Shown here piece by piece: positions 1 to 34,029 of a stretch of 34,029 nucleotides of DNA (the first letter of the stretch is position 1; every line of letters begins with the position of its first letter). The DNA is taken from positions 1 to 34,029 of the IMG/VR virus record IMGVR_UViG_3300042898_000460; one strand, written 5' to 3'. Origin of the DNA: a virus. A model generated the notes under the pieces. That model ran no database searches and was not told the DNA's origin. It saw only the letters and a program-made list of their open reading frames with translations. The position numbers and the translations under genes are program-made.

Positions 1-234
1 CTAACTCCTGGCTTATTATACCCTCTGGATAACCTATCTTACCTTGATGTATCGCAGCCTGTAAGCCTTCCATAAGTTGCTGCTTACTTGAACTTGTAAA
101 CTTTAAACCTTGTATCATTACCCCTTCACGTTGTAAGTCCTCTAGGATAGGGTCGCCAACCCCCGTACTATCGACAAGGATAGGGCATTTAGGCAGCCTA
201 AGGATAGTTTGCTTGGTATTATGCCAATCCATTT
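1..234. repeat. Left copy of contig-end overlap (127 b exact plus 107 b allelic)
   Basis: Bases 108-234 are identical to 33903-34029, exactly 127 bases, which is a common assembler k-mer length and marks a circular assembly rather than a biological terminal repeat. Bases 1-107 align without gaps to 33796-33902 with 14 substitutions (about 87% identity). The overlap implies a circular or circularly permuted genome of about 33,795 bp and a mixed population at terL. Confidence 0.9.
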
Positions 235-1024
235 GAAAGCGGTCAAAATAAGCCACATTTCCGTCTTCGTCTAAGCCTACTATTACAGTCCAATCGACTG
301 ACTTAGCAAGGTCAATTCCATAAGCTACAACAGGCATTGTTGTTACTGGGTGTAAACATTTGCGTATATGTTGGCTACCAAAAGGGTTTGCTGCGTTCTC
401 CGCAGGGTTTGCCATATACTCCTGCTCAAATACAACCTCTGGGAGTTGCTTCCTTGCATCGTCTATTTCGTTGGGGTCAATATATGGGTTATCGTATGTA
501 GTGAATTTAAAGCTTTGCCAATCGGGTTCGGCTTTGCTAAACAAACTAAAAAAGTAATTCTTACCTTTAGGGGTGCTTAAGAATATAGCTTTCCCTTTGT
601 AGTCAGTTAAGGTAGGTCTTATCGAATTTAGCCACCCATCTTCAAGGTTAGGTATAAAGGAAGCCTCGTCTATTACGGCTAAGTGAAACTTTAAGCCTCT
701 TAGGTTATCTAACCTTTCTCCTGTAAAGAAACGTATGCTTCCACCAGTAATAAAATTAATAACCAGGTCGCTTTCGTTTTTAGAGTATATCTCTAATGGT
801 AATAGGTCTACTATTTCCTTAAAGAATATCTTTCCTAATTGGTAAGTAGGTGTAATGTAAGCTACACGCTTTTTATTAACCGCAGTTTCTATGCTTATGG
901 TTTGGCTAATCAAGGACTTGCCAAATCTTCTACCTGCCATCATTACAATAAACCTTTTATCGCAATCAAGTACTTGCTTTTGCGCTGGGTGTGGGTTATG
1001 TAATTTCAAGCCTACTGTCTGCAT
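1..1024 (-). CDS. terL: Terminase large subunit, N-terminal part (continues at 34029-33653)
   Basis: This is the ATPase-nuclease motor that pumps DNA into the prohead. The frame opens with ATG at 1024-1022, overlapping the TAA of the small subunit by one base (TAATG), and runs off the left edge; after joining the ends the protein is 388 residues. I read Walker A AGRRFGKS (about residues 30-37), Walker B LAVIDEA (115-121), a coupling motif STPKGKN (150-156) and the first nuclease acidic residue in GIDLAKS (D238). The next acidic site is VDSTG (D285). These belong to the classic phage terminase family. At 388 residues it is somewhat short for the family but all hallmark motifs are present. Bases 1-107 are a different allele from the matching sequence at 33796-33902, with all differences synonymous, so the left edge is not the same strain as the right edge. 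Confidence 0.96.
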   Translation of the reverse strand, partial: MQTVGLKLHNPHPAQKQVLDCDKRFIVMMAGRRFGKSLISQTISIETAVNKKRVAYITPTYQLGKIFFKEIVDLLPLEIYSKNESDLVINFITGGSIRFFTGERLDNLRGLKFHLAVIDEASFIPNLEDGWLNSIRPTLTDYKGKAIFLSTPKGKNYFFSLFSKAEPDWQSFKFTTYDNPYIDPNEIDDARKQLPEVVFEQEYMANPAENAANPFGSQHIRKCLHPVTTMPVVAYGIDLAKSVDWTVIVGLDEDGNVAYFDRFQMDWHNTKQTILRLPKCPILVDSTGVGDPILEDLQREGVMIQGLKFTSSSKQQLMEGLQAAIHQGKIGYPEGIISQEL

Positions 1025-5686: not shown

Positions 5687-6163
5687 TTATTTGCGTAATT
5701 GTTTTTTAAGTTCTCGTTTAGTTAGTTTTAGTTCCCTATGGATTGACATATAAGGTATACCTGTAACCCTGCTTAATTCTTTAGCATTGCAGTTGTGCTT
5801 AATAGCATACACTCTTAAAAGTTCCGCTTTGTACCAATGCATCTTTGATAACTCATCTTCTACTTTGTCAAGCAATTCTTCGTCTCTATCGTGTACTATC
5901 AATTCTACTTCTAAAGGCTTTCGGTATGTGCGATAAAATTGGCTAGTGTTACTTTGCATCATATTAATCATAGTGCGAACTAAATAGAACTTTAATACAT
6001 TACGGGTGCGCATATCAATTAATCGTTCTTCTTCCATTTCGCATAGCACCTTAAATATTTCGCTTCTTAAATCTTCTCGTAAATCTTCAGGCTGCATCTT
6101 GTCTATTGCTTCCTTTAGTTCTCGGCTTTCCCAAAGTTCTAATATGATGCTATTCTTGTTCAT
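5687..6163 (-). CDS. Sigma-factor-like regulatory protein
   Basis: A 158-residue protein with two helical parts separated by an acidic linker. Residues about 30-85 (LRSEIFKVLCEMEEERLIDM then FYLVRTMINMMQSNTSQFYRTYR) resemble region 2 of ECF-like sigma factors. Residues about 110-156 end in a helix-turn-helix, CNAKELSRVTGIPYMSIHRELKLTKRELKKQLRK, with the spacing of region 4 (recognition helix MSIHRELKLTKREL). A phage-encoded sigma or sigma-like transcription regulator for middle or late genes is plausible. The region-2 signature is weak, so a sigma-derived DNA-binding protein without polymerase binding is the alternative. It overlaps the VRR-NUC gene by 14 bases. Confidence 0.62.
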   Translation of the reverse strand: MNKNSIILELWESRELKEAIDKMQPEDLREDLRSEIFKVLCEMEEERLIDMRTRNVLKFYLVRTMINMMQSNTSQFYRTYRKPLEVELIVHDRDEELLDKVEDELSKMHWYKAELLRVYAIKHNCNAKELSRVTGIPYMSIHRELKLTKRELKKQLRK

Positions 6164-6455
6164 ATTCCTTTAGGATTAATTTGCCGTTTTCTTCGGTTGC
6201 TATATAACAGAAACAATTTGCCGTTTTTGCTAAATTTAAGAACGCTATTTGATAGCTGCTAAGTTTGTCTCCTATTGCTTTAGTCTCGCAATATACCGCT
6301 ACTCCTGTTTGAGTATGGAAGCCTACAACATCTGGCACTCCTTTTAAACCAATGAAGGTTCGACCTCTAACCGCTAAATTGTTATTACGCCATACAAAGC
6401 ACCCGTTTTTATTTAGCTTTTGGATGGCTTCTTTGGTTAATTCGTTTGCGGTCAT
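6150..6455 (-). CDS. VRR-NUC domain nuclease
   Basis: A 101-residue single-domain nuclease of the PD-(D/E)XK superfamily. The hallmarks are GLKGVPDVVGF (about residues 37-47) with the catalytic Asp, then VYCETKAIGDKLSSYQIAFLNLAK (about 54-77) containing the ExK and the conserved Q-x3-F/L helix. Stand-alone VRR-NUC proteins are widespread in phages and act on branched DNA (Holliday junctions, flaps) in recombination or before packaging. It sits between the replication protein and the sigma-like gene, consistent with a job in resolving replication or recombination intermediates. Confidence 0.88.
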   Translation of the reverse strand: MTANELTKEAIQKLNKNGCFVWRNNNLAVRGRTFIGLKGVPDVVGFHTQTGVAVYCETKAIGDKLSSYQIAFLNLAKTANCFCYIATEENGKLILKEYEQE

Positions 6456-32694: not shown

Positions 32695-32868
32695 TTAGAT
32701 TTGTGTAGTTAAATAATCTCTTCTATTGATTAATTCATTTACCCAGTTTAAATACTCTTCAGTAAATACTTGACCTGCTTTTGTGTTTTGAGTAATTACC
32801 TTTTGAATTTGAGCAATTTTTAAATTTAATTGTCTCCACTCTTCTCTTAATTTGATCTTGTTATTCAT
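32695..32868 (-). CDS. Small coiled-coil hypothetical protein
   Basis: From ATG 32868: 57 residues, MNNKIKLREEWRQLNLKIAQ, IQKVITQNTKAGQVFTEEYL, NWVNELINRRDYLTTQI. Entirely helical with heptad-like leucine/isoleucine spacing. A TTG at 32892 would extend it but would include the promoter region. First gene after the promoter candidate at 32890-32923; its leader (CAAAACAAAATAACC then ATG) resembles the junction repeat. Confidence 0.62.
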   Translation of the reverse strand: MNNKIKLREEWRQLNLKIAQIQKVITQNTKAGQVFTEEYLNWVNELINRRDYLTTQI

Positions 32869-32889
32869 GGTTATTTTGTTTTGATATAT

Positions 32890-32923
32890 CAAATATACAA
32901 ACTATTCACATTCAACAATCAAA
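32890..32923 (-). promoter_or_regulatory. Bacteroidota-type promoter of the accessory/tail operon
   Basis: On the minus strand TTTG (32923-32920), 22 bases, TATATTTG (32897-32890). Same -7 octamer and spacer as the early promoter at 9855-9888. Transcription would start near 32883 and read the gene at 32868. Confidence 0.6.
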
Positions 32924-32991
32924 TTGTCTAAAAAAGTATAAGATTTTTTTTAAAATTATGATGAACGGCAAATATCAAGGATAAGCGGTAA

Positions 32992-33041
32992 TTATAGGAA
33001 GGCATACCTACCCGTGCCACGTTTAAGGCTGAAGTTCTGCC
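32992..33041 (-). pseudogene. Fossil 3' end of terL displaced by the HNH gene
   Basis: In one minus-strand frame this stretch reads QNFSLKRGTGRYAFL followed by TAA. The working terminase ends QNFSLKRGTGRYNFL followed by TAA (33653-33700). Fourteen of fifteen residues agree, yet only three of fifteen codons are identical (AAA, TAT, TTC), so the copies differ strongly at synonymous positions. The last codons of the HNH gene (ending at 33023) are read out of frame from the same bases. The simplest reading is that the nuclease gene entered an older terL just before this codon block and brought a substitute 3' end. Confidence 0.85.
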
Positions 33042-33544
33042 TCATATTTCCAAATATACCCATAAGCTTGTTTTTGTAACCCACGTACGCATTTAGATAT
33101 ATTTTGATAATTTACATTAAGTTTTGTGCCAAGCTCTCTCATTCCTATGTGTTTAGCTATAAAATTACCTTGTAAATCATATTGTAATATTGCTACCGAG
33201 CAATTATGATTTGCCCCAGATTTGCCTTTCCAGTAACGAATAGGCTTACATAAATTATTTTTCCAAGCGTGAACAGTGTTTTCCTTTGCGGTTACCCATT
33301 CTAAATTCTCTAATCTATTATCGTTTTTTATTCCGTTAATATGATTTATAAATGGTTTATTATCAATGTTTTCTATAAACTGCAAAGCTAAAAGCCTATG
33401 TATTTTATATGTCTTTTTGTTAATAAAGATAGTTACATACCCATCTTTTGATTGATAATTAGTTAATATCCTTTTTCTTTTTAGGCTATAAACTATACCT
33501 TCTTTTGAAATTAAATACCCTTCTAAACCTTTTATTTGTTCCAT
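33023..33544 (-). CDS. HNH homing endonuclease (NUMOD4-HNH-NUMOD1 type)
   Basis: A 173-residue free-standing homing-type nuclease. Residues 1-28 (MEQIKGLEGYLISKEGIVYS) resemble the NUMOD4 opening. The HNH core is IHRLLALQFIENIDNKPF then INHINGIKNDNRLENLEWVT (about 47-88), with the H-N-G-x-K-x-DNRxENLEWVT signature. The C-terminal part (VAILQYDLQGNFIAKHIGMR, ELGTKLNVNYQNISKCVRGL) is a NUMOD1-like DNA-binding helix-turn-helix followed by GYIWKYE. Such nucleases cut a site in an allele lacking them and spread by repair. The last residues are encoded by displaced terL sequence. ATG at 33544 abuts a U-run and two hairpins with complementary loops. HNH core complete, probably active. Confidence 0.92.
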   Translation of the reverse strand: MEQIKGLEGYLISKEGIVYSLKRKRILTNYQSKDGYVTIFINKKTYKIHRLLALQFIENIDNKPFINHINGIKNDNRLENLEWVTAKENTVHAWKNNLCKPIRYWKGKSGANHNCSVAILQYDLQGNFIAKHIGMRELGTKLNVNYQNISKCVRGLQKQAYGYIWKYEAELQP

Positions 33545-33633
33545 AAAAAAATAAACCCCTCATAAATATAATGGTGGTAGACATTATAGATACTTGGGGA
33601 ATAAATATTTTTGATTGTTGCTACCACACAACA
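33545..33633 (-). promoter_or_regulatory. Double-hairpin leader with complementary loops, upstream of HNH gene
   Basis: Minus strand: hairpin 1 (33633-33616) has stem TGTTG/CAACA and loop TGTGGTAG; hairpin 2 (33599-33556) has outer CCCC/GGGG, an internal loop, inner TATAATG/CATTATA and loop TCTACCAC. Loops share the 7-base complement GTGGTAG/CTACCAC. GGGG is followed by TTTATTTTTTT and ATGG. Different sequences but the same order and the same 19-base ending as the leader at 7809-7897. It also fills the terL-HNH gap and could terminate terL transcripts. Confidence 0.72.
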
Positions 33634-33652
33634 TTGCAAATATAAATATAAA

Positions 33653-34029
33653 TTATAAGAAATTATAACGCCCTGTTCCTCTTTTTAAAGAAAAATTTTG
33701 CCAAGCTAATGCAAGAGCAGTTACCGCATCATCGTGAAAGCCTGAAGGTGCTGAGTACTTAACCCCCGTTGCCGTATACATATATTCAAATACTTCAAGT
33801 TCCTGGCTGATTATTCCCTCAGGGTAGCCTATTTTCCCTTGATGTATCGCAGCCTGTAATCCTTCCATAAGTTGTTGCTTACTTGAACTTGTGAACTTTA
33901 AGCCTTGTATCATTACCCCTTCACGTTGTAAGTCCTCTAGGATAGGGTCGCCAACCCCCGTACTATCGACAAGGATAGGGCATTTAGGCAGCCTAAGGAT
34001 AGTTTGCTTGGTATTATGCCAATCCATTT
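33653..34029 (-). CDS. terL: Terminase large subunit, C-terminal part (continues from position 1 side)
   Basis: These 377 bases complete the gene that begins at 1024. The 124 complete codons encode residues 265-388: a nuclease acidic residue in VDSTGVGDP (D285), the KIGYPEG region, and the third metal-site block GFHDDAVTALALAWQ (HDD at 362-364), so the RNase H-like nuclease is intact. The protein ends QNFSLKRGTGRYNFL, then TAA at 33655-33653. The last 15 codons are synonymously recoded relative to the fossil at 32992-33041. Bases 33796-33902 are a second allele compared with 1-107. Confidence 0.95.
   Translation of the reverse strand, partial: MDWHNTKQTILRLPKCPILVDSTGVGDPILEDLQREGVMIQGLKFTSSSKQQLMEGLQAAIHQGKIGYPEGIISQELEVFEYMYTATGVKYSAPSGFHDDAVTALALAWQNFSLKRGTGRYNFL
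33796..34029. repeat. Right copy of contig-end overlap
   Basis: The last 127 bases (33903-34029) equal 108-234; the 107 before them match 1-107 with 14 substitutions. Same explanation as for the left copy: circular assembly plus two terL alleles. Confidence 0.9.

Follow-up and report, generated by a model that had tools for sequence, protein, structure and literature searches.

How can a homing endonuclease gene occupy the 3' end of an essential phage gene and leave that gene working? Known phage homing genes reach essential genes by introns or inteins, by gene splitting, or by adjacency. The question is raised here by the terL/HNH locus on the minus strand of IMGVR_UViG_3300042898_000460 (positions 1-34,029; this whole stretch of 34,029 nucleotides is referred to as the window). 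Reading downstream on the minus strand, the order is: terL; a recoded terL tail; a 108-nt leader; the HNH gene; and the native terL tail, now separated from terL and termed the fossil. The features are as follows.

33701..34029, minus strand: 3' body of terL (RNase H-like domain; Pfam Terminase_6N / Terminase_6C) to codon W373, flanking the element on its left; insertion point placed by comparison with HNH-less relatives
1-1024, minus strand: 5' part of terL, overlapping the 3' part by 234 nt
33040..33700, minus strand: whole insert (recoded tail, leader and HNH gene), 661 bp (660 in locus L003); in-silico removal restores the empty site
33653..33700, minus strand: recoded replacement terL tail, QNFSLKRGTGRYNFL and stop, carried by the element; codon pattern found only in HNH-positive contigs
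33545..33652, minus strand: leader, from the recoded stop to the HNH start; near-invariant among all HNH-positive contigs
33637..33644, minus strand: TATATTTG, weakly promoter-like, matching the Bacteroidota -7 motif TAnnTTTG
33616..33633, minus strand: leader hairpin 1, a kissing-loop candidate by dinucleotide shuffles
33556..33599, minus strand: leader hairpin 2, from folding and the kissing test
33023..33544, minus strand: I-HmuI-like HNH (HNH_3 + NUMOD1) homing endonuclease gene by Pfam, catalytic residues intact
32992..33039, minus strand: fossil, the native terL tail of the recipient as judged by tail comparison, QNFSLKRGTGRYAFL and stop, now outside the terL frame
32868..32991, minus strand: downstream intergenic region, matching the post-terL region of HNH-less relatives, with a promoter-like TATATTTG at 32897

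The two tails encode nearly the same peptide in different codons. The native tail, CAGAACTTCAGCCTTAAACGTGGCACGGGTAGGTATGCCTTCCTATAA, reads QNFSLKRGTGRYAFL and a stop and is intact at 32992-33039(-); the recoded tail, CAAAATTTTTCTTTAAAAAGAGGAACAGGGCGTTATAATTTCTTATAA, reads QNFSLKRGTGRYNFL and a stop at 33653-33700(-). Over these 48 nt, 14 of 15 residues are identical. At the nucleotide level, 29 of 48 positions are common, with a longest common run of 5 nt, and three of the 15 sense codons (AAA, TAT and TTC) are shared, plus the stop. The C-terminus of the HNH protein, ...EAELQP, is the fossil read out of frame; the fossil also provides the HNH stop codon (cCTTAAa). The codon count, the out-of-frame AELQP and the coordinates all agree with an earlier note on this DNA.

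In the window, terL is split across the contig ends: positions 1-234 and 33796-34029 cover the same 234 nt but with 14 mismatches, which presumably reflect mixed strains in the sample. A complete terL adjoining the HNH gene is seen in the single contigs of relatives L003, L011 and L012, not in the window alone.

The earlier note had proposed that the HNH gene is inserted in the 3' end of terL, and had predicted that relatives lacking it would run from terL directly into the native tail. Both points are confirmed. From a TerL scan of IMG/VR the best 80 close loci were taken, and three of these carry the element. In the ~77 HNH-less loci among them, the terL codon of insertion (GCTTGG|CAGAAC...) continues straight into the native tail, which places the insertion point after W373 of TerL. 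The native tail is then followed by TTTACCGCTTATCC..., as after the window fossil, or by TTGCAACAAGG..., as after the L011 fossil; the L003 fossil is followed by TTTCAACAAGG, nearly the same as TTGCAACAAGG.

The empty site is also recovered by deleting the 660/661-bp insert in silico, joining the flanks by script and aligning them with HNH-less relatives. The joined flanks of L003 align with L016 over 499 nt at 94.4% without a gap. Those of the window align with L036 (488 nt, 93%) and those of L011 with L021 (459 nt, 93%), in both cases with no indel at the junction. The best match to the downstream region of the window is again L036, at 91.8% over 159 nt counted from the fossil. Close relatives thus either have or lack the gene at a single site, a distribution typical of homing endonuclease genes. 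A separate observation concerns the HNH-less locus L007 (~6100-6167), which has the upstream haplotype of the carriers and a TGG to TTG change that turns W373, the insertion codon itself, into L; this is a possible resistant or post-loss allele.

The insert lies at the same codon in four backgrounds, represented by five contigs: the window; L003; L011/L012; and L085 (contig IMGVR_UViG_3300016484_000338), which ends inside the HNH gene. The readable fossils (GGCACGGGTAGGTATGCC in the window, GGCACCGGCAGATATGCC in L003 and GGCACGGGCAGGTACGCC in L011) depart from the native consensus at 0-3 of 48 positions (0/48 in the window) and vary with background, as expected if the fossil is the native end of terL, the identity first suggested for it. 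The recoded tail is identical within 2 nt among carriers and stands 17-19/48 from the native consensus; native tails in 100+ contexts diverge by at most 12/48. The displaced copy is thus like its local relatives and the inserted copy is not, the relationship that marks elements of the Allomyces/Glomus type. A degenerate search of all IMG/VR (2.9 million viral contigs) for the peptide with its TCN serine codon matches only four contigs, all HNH-positive, and no source lineage of the recoded tail appears in IMG/VR outside HNH-positive contigs. Being the same in all carriers and confined to them, the recoded copy fits the carried replacement that the earlier note took it to be.

The element is also more uniform than its surroundings. 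The window and L003 differ at 4 of 689 positions in the element, versus 26 of 270 at terL positions -330 to -60. The terL of L085 falls in another clade, as do those of L051/L052, and its recoded tail and leader are those of the other carriers as far as the junction. Since the fossils resemble local native alleles and the recoded tail and leader are near-identical in all four backgrounds, the element has moved and the fossils are the recipients' own. As judged from these sequences, this is one mobile unit in at least four backgrounds. A 55-60 nt upstream tract common to the window, L003 and L011 is suggestive of co-conversion; this is unproven, as HNH-less L007 has the same upstream haplotype and L060/L062 have most of it.

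The locus is very probably an intron-free homing element equipped with its own terL rescue 3' end and using the fossil as its right homology arm. The proposed unit comprises: the recoded terL 3' end (48 nt); the structured leader (108 nt); and the HNH endonuclease gene. HNH enzymes of the I-HmuI-like type often nick rather than cut, and this one is predicted most likely to nick or cut close to the W373|Q374 codons of an empty terL. If an HNH-positive donor then templated the repair, the element would be copied in, with terL as the left arm and the donor fossil plus downstream DNA as the right arm. The recipient terL would stay functional via the recoded 3' end, and its own 3' end would be shifted ~0.66 kb downstream as the fossil. 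These steps, drawn by analogy with WHO elements (PMC7282813), would yield exactly the observed layout.

The location of the target is constrained by the fossil itself. As worded in the earlier note, the nuclease targets the native 3' end of terL; this is not supported, given the intact native end in every readable HNH-positive allele. The native tail is still complete in the fossil, so that a target within the tail alone would make carriers cut themselves; the target must therefore span the insertion junction or lie to its left. For the same reason, the companion proposal that recoding renders the allele uncuttable fails as an account of the whole immunity, and survives only as putative protection of the left junction. 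In the revised model both junctions would be lost as targets: the left through recoding, and the fossil through loss of the left half of the site. An unrecoded copy at the left junction would recreate the target. Recoding would also eliminate a 48-bp direct repeat, leaving a longest common run of 5 nt, that could be used for deletion of the element by recombination.

Whether the recoding was selected for these effects is a closer question. The alternative is that the recoded codons are simply those natural to a foreign terL lineage, or the outcome of long drift within the element, and arrived with the HNH gene by recombination, unselected, with immunity coming from interruption alone. We rate this as a strong competitor, falling just short of an even chance. 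Over the first 12 codons, the recoded tail reaches 15 of 17 of the synonymous maximum distance from the native tail. Random synonymous codons give P=0.16 under HNH-like AT-rich usage, 0.07 under phage usage and 0.03 under uniform usage; because the recoding is not significantly beyond random in HNH usage, selection for divergence is not demonstrated. Consistent with unselected codons, the replacement N-terminus of a 5' mirror element (below) matches alleles without a detectable HNH gene. Weighing against a foreign source, no lineage with the recoded tail is present in IMG/VR and native tails differ by no more than 12/48. Plain drift from the native tail is opposed by the serine change AGC to TCT, which requires two non-synonymous steps.

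The HNH gene has features expected of a working nuclease. The protein matches Pfam HNH_3 (1.3e-10) and NUMOD1 (1.1e-5), and I-HmuI (PDB 1U3E) at E=4e-13. The invariant residues H49, N67, H68, N76 and N80 are present in the HNH protein (A1), so the active-site motif is intact, and a NUMOD-type DNA-binding repeat accompanies it. In pairs with appreciable divergence dN/dS is 0.06-0.14 (the window-L003 pair has only two differences), and on these comparisons the gene is under purifying selection. In bacterial genomes, a search for the gene gave a single match, at 34%. Carriers are rare (3/80 best terL loci), as might be expected if the putative nuclease were dead or domesticated and the arrangement a historical scar with no current homing. 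The intact motif, the low dN/dS and the near-identical copies in backgrounds whose neighbouring terL segments differ by ~9-10% make this unlikely.

A still less probable origin, to which we assign only a slight chance, is a free-standing HNH gene inserted between the copies of an old, diverged tandem duplication of the terL tail. Such duplications exist: at L065 (2672-2738) the terL tail is duplicated in tandem as an exact 66 bp, without any HNH gene. When the window and ~208 loci were searched for ORF tails present twice within 4 kb (10/14 or more identical residues), the result was the window element, this L065 duplication, a paralogue pair at L034, and nothing else, so the two-tail arrangement is not attributable to chance. 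Set against the duplication origin, relatives are single-tailed, the recoded copy is constant among carriers and the fossils follow the recipient. No HNH-less two-tail allele with the recoded copy was found, nor any HNH-less relative with both C-terminal copies, the observation that the earlier note had named as fatal to its proposal. Another reading, in which a group I or II intron contains the HNH ORF and the fossil is its downstream exon, can be practically dismissed: HNH/NUMOD genes of this family are often located in phage introns, but Rfam at lax thresholds finds no intron here, in line with the earlier note, a group I self-splicing core is not found, the HNH ORF crosses the right junction and leaves no 3' core, and terL stops before the HNH gene.

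The preferred reading, a homing element with a carried rescue end, has its closest relatives outside phages. In fungal mitochondria, mobile ORFs carry a replacement C-terminus for their host gene (Allomyces atp6; Glomus atp6, atp9, cox2 and nad3; PMC3630166), and the Glomus atp6 copies differ mostly synonymously (63.5% nt, 91% aa; PMC3630166). As in those systems, an endonuclease gene lies at the 3' end of an essential gene with an in-frame replacement C-terminus, and the native one is displaced downstream. The differences are that the mitochondrial elements encode LAGLIDADG or GIY-YIG enzymes and have tails of ~50-240 nt, whereas here the enzyme is HNH, the host gene is phage terL and the tail is 48 nt. 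WHO elements at FBA1 in Torulaspora and Lachancea yeasts, for which allele-specific cleavage and resistance were shown experimentally (PMC7282813), share the topology and the proposed repair: the resistance 3' end lies upstream of the nuclease and the old 3' end becomes the second homology arm. Their intein-like LAGLIDADG-zinc finger protein, ~400-bp fragments, tandem clusters and pseudogenes are not seen in the window element.

Phage precedents retain function via introns, gene splitting or bypassing (PMC2988022, PMC5009743, PMC10448857). T4 mobA / gene 60 and Aeh1 mobE / nrdA likewise place a free-standing HNH gene in an essential phage gene with function kept (PMC2988022, PMC5009743), but do so by gene splitting and ribosomal bypassing, with no carried recoded terminus and no fossil. 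The window-type terL tail frame contains no T4 byp-type non-coding gap. I-HmuI (PDB 1U3E) and other intron-encoded phage HNH enzymes belong to the same protein family, and the window element differs in having no intron. In the synthetic HomeR drive (PMC7968924), an engineered Cas9 system in Drosophila, the target is likewise the 3' coding end of an essential gene, for which the drive brings a re-coded version. The open-access literature searched yielded no earlier phage element that carries a recoded end. The combination of nuclease, replacement end and displaced native end is thus known from fungal mitochondria and yeast, and its phage HNH version is new as far as that literature goes.

Such an element would supply the invaded gene with a recoded repair, as engineered home-and-rescue gene drives do, and would be one way for essential phage genes to acquire mosaic ends. 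Each invasion leaves its trace in a displaced end, from which transfer direction and recipients can be read in the sequence. The phage setting also lets one ask whether immunity derives from the recoding itself or whether interruption is enough.

The leader of the window element differs from that of L085 at 1 of 111 positions, while the HNH coding sequences have a dS of ~1.2. Tail and leader together (159 nt) show 1-2 site differences between L085 and other carriers, and identity stops at the HNH start codon. Hairpin 1 has a TGTTG/CAACA stem and the loop TGTGGTAG; hairpin 2 has an outer CCCC/GGGG stem, an inner TATAATG/CATTATA stem and the loop TCTACCAC. The two 8-nt loops are complementary over 7 nt, making them kissing-loop candidates (4/20,000 dinucleotide shuffles; a unique place in the window). 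Because the leader hardly varies, this structure is unsupported by covariation. The outer stem of hairpin 2 overlies the purine-rich stretch preceding the HNH start codon, and in the predicted fold its GGGG could occlude the ribosome site. These features suggest translational control, for which I-TevI, SegB and MobE are precedents (PMC2988022), or a module exchanged between HNH genes. In the 3' form of the element, rescue tail and structured leader may be a conserved module joined to different HNH genes. The TATATTTG sequence at 33637..33644 fits TAnnTTTG, of which there are 28-36 sites per strand. Lax blastn of the leader against GenBank phages gave no match.

A related arrangement occurs in a second terL lineage. 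A generic scan for recoded duplicate ORF ends found no further case in the window's phage family. In a flank scan, the left and right flanks of 130 HNH ORFs of the same family (IMG/VR and GenBank) were compared as peptides, with ~600 mismatched controls. The window element scored 79 and 73 and the control maximum was 55; L214, L251, L269 and L244 also exceeded 55, two of them at the start of terL. Three further loci above the control maximum (L273, L260 and L288) were rejected as antisense low-complexity matches.

In the L251 lineage (L305, L322, L330 and L368; ~685-1434), a fossil TerL N-terminus is followed by the HNH gene and then by a replacement N-terminus, which on sequence is the mirror image of the window element. 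The fossil comprises 24 codons up to the Walker A glycines, the replacement has 67-71% nt identity to it, and the fossils vary with recipient (MLQKTT, MLQRTT, MLQTTT). The replacement is followed by a hairpin insert that breaks the frame exactly where the Walker A codons lie (GGTSS|S..KT; L251 3068-3130, equivalent to L305 1434-1496; similarly L244 3029-3084). This insert is GC-rich, variable in length (32-41 nt overall, 34-41 nt in the L251 lineage), contains stop codons and does not keep the frame. It also occurs in L309, L322, L330, L333, L339, L347, L351, L358, L361, L364 and L368, is absent from ~60/71 relatives, and is bounded by similar or identical codons (TCT...TCT in L364 and L361, GGA...GGA in L244); L351 retains the stem despite several base changes. 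The resulting byp-like gap in the L251 and L244 terL loci recalls the T4 gene 60 bypass. We lean, by a modest degree, towards phages holding a general class of natural home-and-rescue elements in which a small I-HmuI-like HNH gene is paired with a replacement terminus for the essential gene that it interrupts: a 3' form, as in the window; and a 5' form, as in the L251 lineage, with its byp-like Walker A hairpin.

The remaining two high-scoring loci concern other genes. In L214 (2787-3551), from the culturable Streptococcus phage SWK1, the HNH gene sits at the Walker A codons, with 25 codons left over from an Sfi21-type Sak4 on one side and a complete Sak4 gene of DT1 type on the other. This locus was rejected as a short rescue tail, the whole Sak4 gene having been replaced and an N-terminal remnant left. 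At L269 (~2135-2900), the start of a small nuclease-like gene (MQSEKVCYISGSPV) is fused in frame to the HNH gene and a recoded complete copy (KSILQDEKVCYLSGSPV...) lies downstream, possibly a further replacement-terminus element.
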